From the IMG/VR virus record IMGVR_UViG_3300050033_000103, positions 1 to 32,057 of that record: a stretch of 32,057 nt of DNA; one strand, written 5' to 3'. Position 1 is the stretch's first letter. Each line of letters opens with the position of its first letter. This DNA comes from a virus. A model generated the notes under the pieces. It saw only the letters and a program-made list of their open reading frames with translations, had not been told where the DNA came from and ran no database searches. A program made the translations under genes and the position numbers. Positions 3,117-16,596 of this stretch are shown here, one piece after another.

Positions 3117-3335
3117 ATGATACAATTAACAGGGCGCAGAACGGCGCAACAAACGAAACAACAAGAGTGGATGAATGCACACAAAACGCTGCATATCACC
3201 AATAACGCATATTCGTCAGTCTTAAAACACGCCGGAATGCTTCAATCGAAAAGAGGCAAGCATGTATCGGTATCCGAAGCAATAGAAGATTTGGCTAGGA
3301 TCGCAGAAGAACAAGCAGGTGGTGATATGCAATGA
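3117..3335 (+). CDS. Small RHH / VapB-antitoxin-like DNA-binding protein
   Basis: 72 residues. After a basic N-terminal arm (residues 1-25), the segment LHITNNAYSSVLKHAGMLQS followed by KRGKHVSVSEAIEDLARIAEEQ has the short strand, helix, turn, helix pattern of archaeal ribbon-helix-helix proteins, including the KRG-x-x-VS-x-x-EAIE block common in archaeal VapB-like antitoxins. No toxin gene is adjacent, so a regulator is more likely than an antitoxin. The stop overlaps the start of the histone-like gene (ATGA), so the two DNA-binding proteins are probably made together. Confidence 0.6.
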   Translation: MIQLTGRRTAQQTKQQEWMNAHKTLHITNNAYSSVLKHAGMLQSKRGKHVSVSEAIEDLARIAEEQAGGDMQ

Positions 3336-3517
3336 TAAGCAAAAAGATGTTTCACAAGGCGTTAATCGTAGCAGGCGCAACGCAGGTAAGTGATGCTGCA
3401 TTGGTTGACTTTGAAACGTGGATGACCACGTTTATGAACCAGGCAGCGGCAAAGGCCGTTCAGCGGATGCAGGCGGCAGGTCGCGTGAGAATTGAAGTAG
3501 CAGATTTAGGAGAGTGA
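3332..3517 (+). CDS. Archaeal histone-like (histone fold) protein
   Basis: 61 residues. From A14 to R51 it aligns without gaps to archaeal HMf-type histones: the AGA block at 14-16, VSD at 19-21, a 28-residue central helix, and AGR at 49-51 followed by a basic/hydrophobic loop and D58. The spacing from AGA to AGR is 38 residues, the same as in HMfB from memory. R51 and D58 occupy the places of the conserved Arg-Asp clamp. The third helix is cut short after ADL, so tetramer contacts may be lost or changed. A GGTGGTGAT ribosome binding site (3319-3326) precedes ATG 3332, which overlaps the stop of the RHH gene. It could compact viral DNA, modulate host chromatin or regulate transcription; the role is inference. 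Confidence 0.65.
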   Translation: MISKKMFHKALIVAGATQVSDAALVDFETWMTTFMNQAAAKAVQRMQAAGRVRIEVADLGE

Positions 3518-3635: not shown

Positions 3636-3860
3636 ATGGCTCTCAGAGTTGACCCAAATCCAACGATCCCGCTTTGGTGGGCAATCGTGCTGATGCTTGG
3701 CTTACTTGTGACCGTCATTAACTCGGTTGGTCAGTTTTTTACGCTGACAACGCAACAGATCGGCATAGTAGGCTTTGTGGCATTTGCCCTTACCGCTCTG
3801 GCGACGTTCCTTACGACGCTGGAAGCAGGACCAGTTGCATCAGTAGGACCGATGAGGTAG
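3636..3860 (+). CDS. Holin-like protein with two membrane helices
   Basis: 74 residues with two hydrophobic helices (about residues 12-32 and 42-62) joined by a short polar turn, and a short charged C-terminus. This matches the size and topology of class II holins, which make the membrane lesions that end infection. ATG 3636 follows a strong GGTGGTGAT ribosome binding site at 3621-3629. It is the last gene before a terminator and follows other membrane proteins. The two enzyme genes that could act with it lie elsewhere (11223-13744). The holin role is inferred from size and topology. Confidence 0.5.
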   Translation: MALRVDPNPTIPLWWAIVLMLGLLVTVINSVGQFFTLTTQQIGIVGFVAFALTALATFLTTLEAGPVASVGPMR

Positions 3861-3890
3861 GACACAATCAAGTCCTACTATTATTTTTTT
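3857..3890 (+). terminator. Hairpin plus T-tract terminator after the tail/lysis genes
   Basis: GTAGGAC (3857-3863) and GTCCTAC (3872-3878) form a perfect 7-bp stem with an 8-base loop, followed by TATTATTTTTTT to 3890. The left arm overlaps the stop codon of the holin-like gene. T-tracts alone end transcription in archaea, and the hairpin strengthens the case. Confidence 0.75.
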
Positions 3891-5599: not shown

Positions 5600-5728
5600 T
5601 TACTCCGCTTGAGTAAATGCGATATATCCTTCTATTAAACGATTTATGAGGTCGTCAAAAGACTCATCCATCCTTCCAAGTTCTCTGAGGCGTGAGTGTG
5701 TTTCATCTTTAACTGTTATTGTCTTCAT
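5600..5728 (-). CDS. 42-residue RHH / antitoxin-like protein
   Basis: The leftward frame from ATG 5728 begins MKTITVKDETHSRLRELG and continues with MDESFDDLINRLIEGY. This matches the archaeal family of tiny ribbon-helix-helix proteins with the E-SFDDLINRLI signature (VapB-like, often orphan). GAGGTAAT precedes the start. It is the first gene of the lower leftward operon and lies next to a possible operator at 5757-5781, so autoregulation is plausible. Confidence 0.7.
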   Translation of the reverse strand: MKTITVKDETHSRLRELGRMDESFDDLINRLIEGYIAFTQAE

Positions 5729-6271: not shown

Positions 6272-6301
6272 GGCCATTTAAAAAATTCTGTATCTAAAGA
6301 A

Positions 6302-6325
6302 ATGGAAAGATGGAGAAATGGAGAA
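6302..6325 (+). repeat. Left triplet of the 8-bp repeat ATGGARAR
   Basis: Three units follow without gaps: ATGGAAAG, ATGGAGAA, ATGGAGAA. The same three units occur in opposite orientation at 6478-6501. The 16 bases ATGGAGAAATGGAGAA form a perfect inverted repeat with the right copy. Confidence 0.8.
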
Positions 6326-6477
6326 TTAGCACCATCCACACCCCGAAAATCCCTAAAAACGACACTTTATGAACGTGAGAGATAGATATTTATACATTAA
6401 CTCCATATGATTACTCACCTCTACTATTTGTGATAGATTTTATAATTTCATACTAGCGGCGTTTCGCAGCTAACTAT

Positions 6478-6501
6478 CTTTCCATTTCTCCATTTCTCCA
6501 T
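6478..6501 (-). repeat. Right triplet of the 8-bp repeat ATGGARAR
   Basis: On the reverse strand this reads ATGGAGAA, ATGGAGAA, ATGGAAAG with no gaps, mirroring the left triplet. Order and orientation suggest iterons or paired binding sites flanking the AT-rich centre of the control region. Confidence 0.8.
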
Positions 6502-6509
6502 TAGTTTTA

Positions 6510-6525
6510 AGTAACTTAGGTTACT
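6510..6525. promoter_or_regulatory. Spaced palindrome before the first rightward early gene
   Basis: AGTAAC-TTAG-GTTACT is a perfect 6-bp inverted repeat with a 4-base spacer, ending 11 bases before ATG 6537. No ribosome binding site is visible there, so the transcript may be leaderless or nearly so, and a protein on this site would block it. The half-site resembles the GTTTAC/GTAAAC palindrome at 6256. Confidence 0.45.
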
Positions 6526-6536
6526 CCTTATTAACG

Positions 6537-11088: not shown

Positions 11089-11226
11089 ATGAGCGAAAAG
11101 ACGTATCACGCAATCCGTGTGGAATGCACCGTGAATAGAATGCTGGCCACTCCCCCAACAACGCGCAAAACAGATAGTTATACAGAACACGAAATGAAGG
11201 ATAAACTAAAGAAGGCGATAAAATGA
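11089..11226 (+). CDS. 45-residue hypothetical protein
   Basis: Preceded by GAGGTAAAAG and overlapping the glycosidase-like gene by ATGA. A short strand-like start (YHAIRVECTV), a Thr/Pro middle and a Lys-rich helix at the end (MKDKLKKAIK). Coupling to the lytic enzyme gene suggests joint expression; function unknown. Confidence 0.45.
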   Translation: MSEKTYHAIRVECTVNRMLATPPTTRKTDSYTEHEMKDKLKKAIK

Positions 11227-12251
11227 CAAACCTTAATTACGCGGCCAGCGTCACATCCGGTTCGATTGGCGACCTACCAAAGTATAAAACCGATTGGAAA
11301 ATAAACACCGTTGACTTAGTTTCAACCGGCGGCGCATCGAACACATACACCAAAGAATTAGCGTATATCAAATCGTTAAACCTGATTCCACGCCTGGACA
11401 TCGAAATGGATATATGGGCAGGTGGACAGATTCAAACGCCTATAGGGAATTTTTCCGGCTACCTGCAAGCACTAAAGGCGGCAGGATGGCCAACAGTCTG
11501 TAGTGAAGGCGGACGCTCTGGCGATCCTACTTTTATACGTGGCATGGGCCTGGGATATGTCAATTACAACTGCGATCAATGCGGATTGTGGAAAGACATA
11601 TACACCGACAACGGAACGGTGCTCAACCTTTGGGAAGCGTATTATCCTGCAGAAGTTCAATATATCACGCAGGGCGCAAGTTCTGGAAAACCCAATGGCA
11701 TACTCGCAGGCGCGTGGTCCAATTCCGGCGGTGATAACCAGATATTGGGCAATTCACTTGCAGGCACGCAACCGAGTTATCAATCAATCATTGCCTCACT
11801 TTTAGCAGCAGGCCGCAAGGTCACTGATTTCGAGGTTTGGGGCGGAGAAAATTCAAGCAGAGCTGAAAATTCAGCACTAGGATTTGATATAATCGTGGCA
11901 AACCTGCAGAAAACATATCCACCAAACGGTTCAACGCCAACCCCAACCCCAACACCACCAACAAAAACCGTCACCACAATATCTGAAATGTTCGTTGTAT
12001 CCAGCGGTGCTAACACAGACAGGTTCGTGGTTGGATCAGACAACGCAGTGTGGTGGATACGCAACGATGCAAAGCCGGTATCGCTCGGCGGAACAGCATA
12101 CGCAGGGACCATGCCAACCGCTGCATATATTGGCACTGATAACGTGCTGAACGTCTATATTCCAGGCACTGACCATCGTATATACAACAAAACATTGACA
12201 GGAACCACGTGGTCTGCTAAATGGAAAAACGTGGCGGATCAACTGCAGTGA
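11223..12251 (+). CDS. Glycosidase-like barrel protein with C-terminal beta (binding) domain
   Basis: 342 residues. Residues 1-235 show repeated hydrophobic strands ending in acidic residues, as in TIM-barrel glycosidases: IPRLDIEMD (E61), TVCSEGG (E95), LNLWEAYYPAE (E138) and FEVWGGE (E204). The family is not recognised and the catalytic pair is a guess. A Thr-Pro repeat linker (238-248) leads to a domain of about 95 residues with TDRFVVGSDNAVWWI and VSLGGTAYAG, almost the same as the end of the peptidase at 12653. Together they look like envelope-degrading enzymes with one shared binding module. No signal peptide is seen, so export or holin release would be needed. Confidence 0.55.
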   Translation: MTNLNYAASVTSGSIGDLPKYKTDWKINTVDLVSTGGASNTYTKELAYIKSLNLIPRLDIEMDIWAGGQIQTPIGNFSGYLQALKAAGWPTVCSEGGRSGDPTFIRGMGLGYVNYNCDQCGLWKDIYTDNGTVLNLWEAYYPAEVQYITQGASSGKPNGILAGAWSNSGGDNQILGNSLAGTQPSYQSIIASLLAAGRKVTDFEVWGGENSSRAENSALGFDIIVANLQKTYPPNGSTPTPTPTPPTKTVTTISEMFVVSSGANTDRFVVGSDNAVWWIRNDAKPVSLGGTAYAGTMPTAAYIGTDNVLNVYIPGTDHRIYNKTLTGTTWSAKWKNVADQLQ

Positions 12252-12432: not shown

Positions 12433-12656
12433 AGCGCATTGGTGGTTTGAAGGAATTCGAAACCAGAATTTGCGCAAACATAGATTGCAGGCGAGCATTC
12501 ACCATAATTAATTGGATGCGCGTGGGCAACAGTATCGTCAAAAGTGCTGGCAGAAAGCAGCGGTATTGTGACAAATGTTCACAATCCCATAATGCCAGGA
12601 CCAGGAACAAACGGATTGTAAACGAACATAAGGAAGTTAGAAAAGGTGAACAATGA
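12429..12656 (+). CDS. Zinc-binding basic protein, GTG start
   Basis: 75 residues. CANIDC at 15-20 and CDKC near 47-50 form a likely four-Cys zinc site. The rest is strongly basic (SAGRKQRYC, ARTRNKRIV). GTG 12429 overlaps the upstream TGA, and its own stop overlaps the peptidase start. Likely a nucleic-acid binding protein; exact role unknown. Confidence 0.55.
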   Translation: MKRIGGLKEFETRICANIDCRRAFTIINWMRVGNSIVKSAGRKQRYCDKCSQSHNARTRNKRIVNEHKEVRKGEQ

Positions 12657-13744
12657 AGAAAGAAGAGTTTAAGGGCGGGTGGCTCAGGCAACAACCAGAT
12701 CATAGGGATTATAGATTTGATGATGTTAGGAAAGCTATTATGCTTCCGGCATCCGTCGATCTGCGCAGCCAGATCAAACGGGTTAATGACCAGGACGGCA
12801 TAGGATGCTGTGTTGGCGAAGGATCCTGCGCGTGCTTTGCCGCATGTCAGGTGCGTTTAACCGGTTCCGATTTTCCAGGGTGCATCAAATACGAGTATAG
12901 AAACGCCAGGATATTATCAGGCACGTTTCCAGGTGATAATGGCGCTGATGTCAGAAGCGGCGTAAAAGCAACCGCCCAATATGGCGTCTGTCCAGAAAGC
13001 GATTGGCCGTTTGACACCAACATTGATGCAACGCCTCCAACAAAATGTGCAACCGACGCAGCGAAAGCAGAAAGCACCAACTACTATCTGCTTGATTCAA
13101 CGTCGGGCGCAGCGCAAACGCTCACCAATATTAAGACTGCATTAGCAGGCGGATTGTGTGTCGTGTTTGGCAGCACCGTTTACGAAAGCATTTTTAATGT
13201 CGGCAGCGACGGCATGATTCCTTACCCAACCGCCGATGATCCGGTTGCAGGCGGACACTGTATGCTGTGGGTTGGCTACGATGACGCAAAGCAGTGCTTC
13301 TTAACATTGAACAGTTGGGGGACAAGTTGGGGAATGAAAGGCTATGGTTGGCTTCCCTACAAGTATGTCACTGCTGGCCTGGCAAATGATTGTTGGGCAA
13401 TCGCAGCAGAATCAGAAATTAATCCGACACCGACACCAACCCCAACACCGACACCAGCAACAGTTACCACAAAATCAGAAATGTTTCCTGTTGTTTCGCC
13501 AAACGGCACAGATGTTGATAAATTCGTGGTTGGAACAGACAAAGCAGTGTGGTGGATACACAACGCAGCTAAACCAGTTTCGCTAGGCGGCATAGCATAC
13601 GAGGGAAAAATGCCAACCGCAGCAATTATCAGCGGCGTTCTCACAGTGTTCATCGAAGGAACAACCCAGGCGCAATACATGAAACAATACGTTAACGGCG
13701 CATGGACAGCAAAATGGCAGAACGTAGAATACCAACTGCAGTAA
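12653..13744 (+). CDS. Papain-family (C1) cysteine peptidase with C-terminal beta domain
   Basis: 363 residues. The start GGWLRQQPDHRDYRFDD is typical of prokaryotic C1 peptidases. The catalytic set is visible: Q47 six residues before C53 (as Gln19 and Cys25 in papain), H202 in GGHCMLWVGYDD and N220 in LNSWGTSWG. A repeated Thr-Pro linker (257-267) joins a beta domain (about 268-363) nearly the same as in the glycosidase-like protein. It probably cleaves the host surface protein or peptide layer for entry or release. It is not of the pseudomurein endoisopeptidase type. AAAAGGTGAACA precedes the start. No signal peptide is visible. Confidence 0.8.
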   Translation: MKKEEFKGGWLRQQPDHRDYRFDDVRKAIMLPASVDLRSQIKRVNDQDGIGCCVGEGSCACFAACQVRLTGSDFPGCIKYEYRNARILSGTFPGDNGADVRSGVKATAQYGVCPESDWPFDTNIDATPPTKCATDAAKAESTNYYLLDSTSGAAQTLTNIKTALAGGLCVVFGSTVYESIFNVGSDGMIPYPTADDPVAGGHCMLWVGYDDAKQCFLTLNSWGTSWGMKGYGWLPYKYVTAGLANDCWAIAAESEINPTPTPTPTPTPATVTTKSEMFPVVSPNGTDVDKFVVGTDKAVWWIHNAAKPVSLGGIAYEGKMPTAAIISGVLTVFIEGTTQAQYMKQYVNGAWTAKWQNVEYQLQ

Positions 13745-14631: not shown

Positions 14632-15820
14632 GGCACGCGAAGCATTATTTGGTGGCGCAGCAGGTGGTGGCAAGTCCTACTGCCTCACGATGGCGGCCCT
14701 GCAGTATGTTGACGTTCCGTATTATAATGCGCTTCTGGTCCGTCGGACATATGGTCACTTGTCCCAACCTGGCGCTCTAATGGACATCATGCGCCAATGG
14801 TTAGAAGGATCGCATGGCGTTCATTGGGACCGTGTAGAAAACCTAATCACGTTTCCCAGTGGCGCGCAACTCAAATTTGGCTACTTGCGCAATGAGGCAG
14901 ATAAAGACCAATACCAGGGTGCAAACTATCACTTCATCGGCGTTGACGAACTGACGCAGTTTGATGAGGACCAGTATCTGTGGTTGATGTCCAGGAATCG
15001 TGCGCCTATCAGTGAAGCGGACATTCCTTTGCGAATGTGGTCAGCATCAAACCCTGGACGCAGAGGGCATTATTGGGTTAAGCAACGGTTTCTGATCGAA
15101 GGCGAATTGAAAGGCAGGACGTTTGTGCGCTCACTCTTGCAGGATAACCCACACTTAGATTATAACGAATACAAAAAGACGCTGGAAAACCTAGATCCCG
15201 TTACACGCCAGCAGTTACTTGATGGCAATTGGGACGTGGTGGCAGGCGGGGGATTCTTCCAACGGCAGTGGTTCAAGATCCTGGACACGCCGCCACAAAT
15301 CACGCTGAAAGTAAGGTTTTGGGACTTGGCGGCAACACCAAAGACAGAAACCAACGATCCCGATTGGACTGCGGGCGCATTGGTCAGCATGCATGACGGA
15401 TCATACTGCGTTGAAAACATCGTGCGCACGCAACAGACAGCGCAGAACGTCGAACAACTCATACGGCAAACCGCAGACATTGACGGCCCAGGCGTTGCTG
15501 TGATAATTGAGCAAGAACCAGGCGCGAGCGGGTTACAAGTTCTGGACTATTACCGGCGGCACGTTCTGCCAGACAGGAATTTGCGCGCGTTTAGGCCAAC
15601 AGGTCCAAAGGAAAGCAGGATTGCAATAGTTAGTTCACACGTCGAAAGCGGAAACCTTATGCTGCTTCGTGGAAATTGGATAAGTGACTTGCTGGACGAA
15701 GCGGAATTATTCCCTGATGGCCATGACGATCAACTTGATTCTATTGCTGGCGCAGTGGCGATGTTGCAACAGGCAGGCGGACGGACGCGCGTAAGATGGT
15801 TCGGGGGGCGGCAACGATGA
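14504..15820 (+). CDS. terL: Terminase large subunit (packaging ATPase/nuclease)
   Basis: 438 residues. A Walker A motif GGAAGGGKS spans residues 50-58, and a Walker B IGVDE ends at D148/E149. The C-terminal nuclease domain shows FWDLAATPK, VIIEQEPGASG and GHDDQLDSIAGA, the acidic residues that bind metal in RNase H-like terminase nucleases. The usual family start (NPW-x-x-x-EPT-x-KQ) lies at 25-36, so ATG 14504 gives a normal length. It pumps DNA into the prohead and cuts the concatemer. The stop overlaps the next gene (ATGA). Confidence 0.93.
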   Translation: MQELQSISPLNEQQENLYLATVLANPWIKDEPTTKQELFLKTEAREALFGGAAGGGKSYCLTMAALQYVDVPYYNALLVRRTYGHLSQPGALMDIMRQWLEGSHGVHWDRVENLITFPSGAQLKFGYLRNEADKDQYQGANYHFIGVDELTQFDEDQYLWLMSRNRAPISEADIPLRMWSASNPGRRGHYWVKQRFLIEGELKGRTFVRSLLQDNPHLDYNEYKKTLENLDPVTRQQLLDGNWDVVAGGGFFQRQWFKILDTPPQITLKVRFWDLAATPKTETNDPDWTAGALVSMHDGSYCVENIVRTQQTAQNVEQLIRQTADIDGPGVAVIIEQEPGASGLQVLDYYRRHVLPDRNLRAFRPTGPKESRIAIVSSHVESGNLMLLRGNWISDLLDEAELFPDGHDDQLDSIAGAVAMLQQAGGRTRVRWFGGRQR

Positions 15821-16596
15821 ATAATATCTATTTTGTCAGCGGCGGAAAAGATAGCACAGCGATGTTGCTTCATTCTTTAGAACTTGGAAACAAAATAGAT
15901 AGCGTCGTTTTTCTGGACACAACGATGGAGTTTCAACTATTGTATAATTATCTTGACGCCATAGACAAAGAGATCGAACAATACGGATTGCAGATTGAAA
16001 GAAGAATAACGGCAATCCATCAGTTTGATGAACGGTTTTATCAGGTAATCAAATCAGGACCACACAAAGGCGACATTCGCGGGTTTCCATATGCGGCGTT
16101 CAGCAGAATGTGCTGGATCAGACGGGAATTTAAAGCGTTTCCGAAACCAGCAGCAGACGATTGCCACCACATTGGCATTGCGTATGATGAACGGCACAGA
16201 ACAAAAAGAAAAACATACACAGAAGAAATTGAATGCGTTGGATGTGCGCCGTTCGCAGACGATTGCAACACAATGACCACACAAACATCCAAACATTTCA
16301 AGTTTCCGTTAATAGAATGGAAATTGACAGAGGCAGATTGTTTGGAATTTTTAAAACAACGCGGAATTGTAAACCAGTTGTATGACCACGTAACAAGAAT
16401 CGGCTGCTGGTTGTGTCCGTATCAATCAAAGAGATCTTTGTCATACCTTTACACCAACCACCCGCAGTATTGGAAACAACTGCTTCAATATGAAAGCGAT
16501 TCGCCGCAGGGGTTTTTAGCCAAAGGGAAACGCCTCAAAGAACTGGAAGCATCATTTGAAGTAGATAATAAATTTAAGCAATCGGTGTTGGCGTAA
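15817..16596 (+). CDS. PAPS-reductase-like / adenine nucleotide alpha-hydrolase protein
   Basis: 259 residues. SGGKDST at 8-14 is the PP-loop that binds ATP or PAPS. Further family marks are a CWIRREFK block (C99) and CWLCPYQSKRSL at 197-208. C140, C143, C150, C197 and C200 could bind a metal or iron-sulfur cluster. Phage proteins of this family often lie near terminases and are linked by context to base or sulfur modification (DndC is a relative), but sulfate reduction is unlikely without partners. GGGGGGCGGC precedes ATG 15817, which overlaps the terL stop. Confidence 0.8.
   Translation: MNNIYFVSGGKDSTAMLLHSLELGNKIDSVVFLDTTMEFQLLYNYLDAIDKEIEQYGLQIERRITAIHQFDERFYQVIKSGPHKGDIRGFPYAAFSRMCWIRREFKAFPKPAADDCHHIGIAYDERHRTKRKTYTEEIECVGCAPFADDCNTMTTQTSKHFKFPLIEWKLTEADCLEFLKQRGIVNQLYDHVTRIGCWLCPYQSKRSLSYLYTNHPQYWKQLLQYESDSPQGFLAKGKRLKELEASFEVDNKFKQSVLA

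Follow-up and report, generated by a model that had tools for sequence, protein, structure and literature searches.

The gene and its surroundings

The window analysed here, meaning the whole 32,057-nt stretch of viral DNA, carries at positions 3332–3517 of the plus strand (stop codon included) a gene for a 61-residue protein with the translation MISKKMFHKALIVAGATQVSDAALVDFETWMTTFMNQAAAKAVQRMQAAGRVRIEVADLGE, which we describe below as a virus-encoded histone-fold protein. A Shine-Dalgarno-like stretch at 3317–3326 on the plus strand, AGGTGGTGAT, can be read from the sequence ahead of its ATG, with the Shine-Dalgarno-like GGTGGTGAT standing 5 nt upstream of the start codon. The histone gene comes after tail genes. 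Downstream of it are a gene for a small membrane protein (3636–3860, plus strand), which looks holin-like by eye and has two hydrophobic stretches, and a terminator-like hairpin with a T run behind it (3856–3879, plus strand), likely the 3' end of the histone-bearing transcript. The gene sits among tail, lysis and packaging genes, and in four of five lineages it is found upstream of a gene for a papain-like peptidase. In the lineages of G002 and L056 only a few bases separate its end from the peptidase gene; in G001 and G004 the gap is a few hundred bases. In G002 and G003 the histone gene stands just upstream of both the peptidase gene and the terminase genes.

The initial annotation had proposed that the histone is co-translated with a ribbon–helix–helix (RHH) protein and that the pair might coat viral DNA. 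The upstream ORF in question (3117–3335, plus strand; 72 aa) does overlap the histone start by an ATGA at 3332–3335, but this overlap is a feature of the window that is not conserved in the relatives. Relatives of the upstream ORF occur in G004 (45% identity), approximately 11.5 kb away from the histone gene of that virus, and in G001 (26%), again away from the histone. The protein resembles an RHH protein by eye only: it has no Pfam RHH match, Foldseek returned no convincing RHH structure (NikR appeared only at E 6.3), and its monomer model shows an extended stretch followed by helices at residues 29–46 and 52–71. As the usual neighbour of the histone is the papain-like peptidase gene, the upstream ORF cannot be called a conserved partner, and a DNA-coating pair of histone and RHH protein finds no support when the RHH fold is unconfirmed and the pairing is not conserved.

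Several other features of the window were recorded. The proteins encoded at 11223–12251 (glycosidase-like by eye, with no Pfam match) and 12653–13744 (a papain-like C1 peptidase) share a common C-terminal domain after a TPTPTP linker and are probable lysis or envelope-binding proteins. A PAPS-reductase-family protein is encoded at 15796–16596, between the terminase and portal genes. The divergent intergenic region at 6278–6536 contains 34-nt inverted repeats 144 nt apart, 79% complementary with exact parts of 16 and 14 nt, together with AT-rich TTTATA-like boxes, and may serve as an operator, an origin or a promoter. None of the genes in the window (1–32057) was recognised as encoding a tape-measure protein, and the record is probably incomplete, seemingly lacking the tape-measure part of the tail module.

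Conservation of the gene

The histone gene family comprises nine IMG/VR contigs including the window, with six distinct sequences that are each 61 aa long and all end in D-x-G-E; one relative (L056) was added to the IMG/VR matches by a degenerate DNA pattern search. The presence of the gene in several head-tail virus contigs bears out the earlier description of the protein as virus-encoded. Relatives in IMG/VR are 69–75% identical to the protein of the window, and comparison of the window's gene with four of them gave pN values of 0.15–0.21 against pS values of 0.53–0.91. This low pN relative to pS identifies the ORF at 3332–3517 as a real gene whose protein is under purifying selection.

The degree of conservation stands out when two virus backbones are compared, one represented by the window, G002 and G003 and the other by G001 and G004. 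Between these backbones the histone is 69–75% identical, whereas capsid, portal and tail proteins are 19–25% identical, and non-histone proteins as a whole fall at 19–48% where the alignment covers half of their length or more (one 24-residue match excepted). Recent transfer as the entire cause of this conservation can be ruled out, because synonymous sites differ strongly. Searches further afield found no match to the window's histone in phage or plasmid records by tblastn, no cellular or proviral relative in scans of genome contigs, and no viral relative in a fold search of BFVD.

Evidence for a histone fold

The protein aligns without gaps to HMfB from α1 to the start of helix 3, with each residue n corresponding to HMfB residue n+1. 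The HMf-type layout noted in the initial annotation, with a 38-residue AGA-to-AGR span and no gaps, is thus confirmed by the alignment (residues 14–51 here and 15–52 in HMfB, counted inclusively), and the chain stops at D58-L-G-E, the site at which helix 3 would begin. The ungapped BLOSUM62 score against HMfB at offset +1 was 55, compared with a mean of 21.1 (sd 4.3) and a maximum of 54 in 20,000 shuffles. A profile search against archaeal histones, the check set out in advance, also found similarity: the profile–profile score from hhalign against four archaeal histones was 32.3, above the maximum of 26.2 in 1000 column shuffles (mean 9.9, sd 2.2). When an HMM of four archaeal histones was run over 391 ORFs from the window and its relatives, the family ranked first and the next protein scored 8.5 bits.

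Database searches are to be read with the caveat that no single match to the protein meets a strict or curated cut-off. The sole NCBIfam match is NF043032 (archaea_histone), found in all six aligned members with a best E of 0.0014 and a score of 18.7 bits, far below the curated cut-off of 50. Single-protein searches of Pfam and PHROGs gave no histone match, and the Pfam histone family did not match the protein. In the PDB, the archaeal histone HPhA ranked top in a single-sequence search (E 0.37), and five of the six matches to the family profile were histone-fold proteins in register (CENP-X and HPhA; E 0.2–0.6), with CENP-X in first place.

The AlphaFold2 monomer (mean pLDDT 83.7) consists of α1 at residues 4–13, a loop and a 28-residue α2 at residues 21–48, with no α3 and with low confidence at residues 57–61. 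A fold other than that of a histone was looked for, and the monomer model and Foldseek gave a histone fold instead, with histone-fold entries making up 49 of the 50 PDB matches listed, all at E-values above 1. Since helix–loop–long-helix models favour so abundant a fold, the structural result backs the sequence result rather than constituting independent proof of it. Taken together, the family search, the profile comparison and the structure prediction support an archaeal-type histone fold for the 61-aa protein, and the original proposal of a histone cut short at helix 3 has held up.

Surfaces retained and lost

Residue roles in archaeal histones have been assigned to the dimer core, the tetramer interface and the DNA contacts (PMC6136690, PMC13260811), and enabled us to follow each surface along the viral chain. 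Predicted helix α1 (residues 4–13; 3341–3370) is followed by loop L1 (residues 14–20, AGATQVS; 3371–3391), predicted helix α2 (residues 21–48; 3392–3475) and loop L2 with the C-terminal end (residues 49–61; 3476–3514), all on the plus strand. The dimer core is retained in α2, with A24, L28, L32, I39 and A43 of HMfB represented by A, F, M/I, A and A in the four tabulated sequences and the six-row alignment. Loop L1 keeps its valine and the equivalent of the stacking glycine G16, and α2 is of nucleosomal length, the 36 residues from G15 to R51 equalling those from G16 to R52 in HMfB. The R–D clamp, an arginine and an aspartate seven residues apart (PMC13260811), is likewise retained, R52–D59 of HMfB becoming R51–D58, invariant in all six sequences.

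The surfaces that join one dimer to the next are altered. The dimer–dimer interface of nucleosomal histones consists of L46, H49, D59 and L62 (PMC6136690), and these positions are occupied by R (R45), A (A48), D and the final E in the tabulated sequences and the six-row alignment; helix α3, ten residues long in the HMf type, is absent, the chain ending three residues past D58 in every member. Among the DNA contacts, the four tabulated sequences have K/D/H/L in place of the minor-groove arginine R10 and Q (Q18) in place of the other, R19. The RV motif accordingly reads QV (HV in one family member), and RKTV reads RxR[IV], with K53 lost and T54 changed to R (R53). The protein has therefore kept the dimer core and the R–D clamp and lost the tetramer interface, α3 and both minor-groove arginines.

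Host

The virus had been described as archaeal, and on this point the evidence is divided. In favour, genes for DUF7557 proteins are found in the window (a DUF7557/VapB-like antitoxin-type protein at 5600–5728 on the minus strand, E 8e-10) and, as related genes, in G001, and among 14 control genomes they were matched only in the archaea Haloferax and Methanosarcina. Against this, the terminase is closer to those of Peribacillus plasmid elements (50–52% identity) than to that of the Methanothermobacter virus psiM100 (45%). HVO_A0114 was considered as a further host marker and dropped because it matches all 14 control genomes. The window and the 17 loci scanned contain no tRNA gene and so offer no tRNA-based clue to the host, and scans for sigma-70 promoters (38 promoter-like sites against 33.9 expected) and terminators were uninformative in this respect. 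An archaeal host is likely, as the better guess rather than a demonstrated fact.

Discussion

A virus-encoded histone that appears able to pair but not to chain is most simply read as a capstone on host hypernucleosomes. We put the probability at about 0.4 that the protein acts in this way, pairing with host histone and stopping hypernucleosome growth. In this model, an archaeal-type histone reduced to α1-L1-α2-L2 would have kept the surfaces of the handshake dimer and lost those that chain dimer to dimer. It would most likely pair with a host histone, or else with itself, and such dimers may cut short or weaken the hypernucleosome of the host, in the way proposed for cellular capstone histones. 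The chromatin on viral or host DNA could thereby be loosened, for instance ahead of the packaging of naked viral DNA, although both the timing and the benefit of such loosening are conjectural. Because the chain-linking part is missing, the protein may cap or break up host chromatin in infection, and disturbance of host chromatin, suggested in the initial annotation as an alternative to coating of viral DNA, is our leading idea. More tentatively, a family of archaeal head-tail viruses may encode a dominant-negative histone, which in the infected cell would pair with host histones and cut hypernucleosomes short. If true, this would show viruses of archaea acting on host chromatin, and would provide a 61-residue reagent for asking whether capped hypernucleosomes alter transcription or defence in archaea.

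The main rival to the capstone reading is a self-sufficient homodimer that bends or coats viral DNA without wrapping it, in the manner of HBb, and so serves as a nucleoid protein rather than an antagonist; we regard this as possible, if doubtful. The retained dimer core would permit it, and K4, K41, R45, R51 and R53, invariant in the six-row alignment, could form another DNA surface. Foldseek also matched the bacterial histone HBb (9ezz, 8fvx), and cellular histones without α3 exist (PMC11390915, PMC6136690). However, both minor-groove arginines are replaced and K53 is lost, and the net charge of the tabulated sequences is 0 to +1, compared with +3 for HMfB counted alike.

Two further readings are both unlikely. 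The protein might associate late with the viral genome or the packaging machinery, and might even enter the capsid, as its late-gene position would suggest, behind the tail genes of the window and, in G002 and G003, shortly ahead of the genes for the papain-like peptidase and the terminase. That position nevertheless varies between viruses, and tailed-virus capsids normally hold DNA packaged at high pressure without histones. It is similarly improbable that the protein is a histone-fold transcription regulator or scaffold, akin to NF-Y or CENP-X, with a non-histone partner from host or virus. CENP-X is the best PDB match of the family profile, the DNA-contact residues are changed, and strong conservation between viruses whose backbones have diverged suggests that the partner is conserved too, but the sole NCBIfam match is an archaeal-histone model, and both the R–D clamp and the AGA..VS loop are traits of archaeal histones. 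Least credible of all is a helix-loop-helix viral protein that resembles a histone by chance, for while no database match rises above a curated cut-off and Pfam gives no histone match, the shuffle controls, the ranking controls and the independent fold matches are concordant.

Histones are known in giant viruses of amoebae and also in some phages, where they carry an extra domain. A survey of archaeal tailed viruses does not mention histones (PMC8651126), and HMfB has no match among INPHARED phage records. Separately from the 61-residue family, we observed full-length canonical archaeal-type histones on six IMG/VR contigs (L016–L021), some of which may be host DNA; the histone of L017 adjoins head-tail connector-like genes, and that of L018 lies near two repeat-containing peptidase-like genes.

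The viral protein fits none of three known classes: nucleosomal histones, α3 histones and the described phage histones. With HMfA/HMfB and HPhA it shares the ungapped α1-L1-α2-L2 arrangement, an α2 of equal length, the AGA..VS loop, the R–D clamp and the dimer core; unlike them it has no α3, L46, H49 and L62 are replaced, and RV and RKT have become QV and RxR. The α3 histones, which include face-to-face and bacterial dimer histones, have a truncated α3 and an α2 four to five residues shorter than that of nucleosomal histones (Schwab et al. 2024, PMC11390915). The viral protein resembles them as a short, single-domain histone with a rudimentary or absent α3, yet its α2 keeps the nucleosomal length. 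Phage histones, in turn, are extended by a C-terminal helical tetramerisation domain, according to the same study (Schwab et al. 2024, PMC11390915); they share with our family an origin in tailed prokaryotic viruses and a truncated α3, whereas all members described here are 61 aa long and lack a C-terminal domain.

The closest parallels come from cellular histones. The capstones Msp_0383 and Msm_1260 are marked by a hydrophobic or acidic residue at position 49 (Stevens 2020, PMC7776873), and in the viral family the equivalent residue is alanine in all six sequences. Both thus have a residue other than histidine at this position and a predicted loss of the dimer–dimer contact, but in the cellular capstones a changed residue weakens the interface, while the viral protein has no α3 at all. 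The lokiarchaeal histone HLkE is C-terminally truncated, too short for α3, and rated unable to form hypernucleosomes (PMC6136690); it is cellular, and it resembles the viral protein in description, the end of the viral chain also being too short for α3. In concept, the nearest relatives of the viral histone are the cellular capstones (PMC7776873) and this truncated lokiarchaeal histone (PMC6136690).
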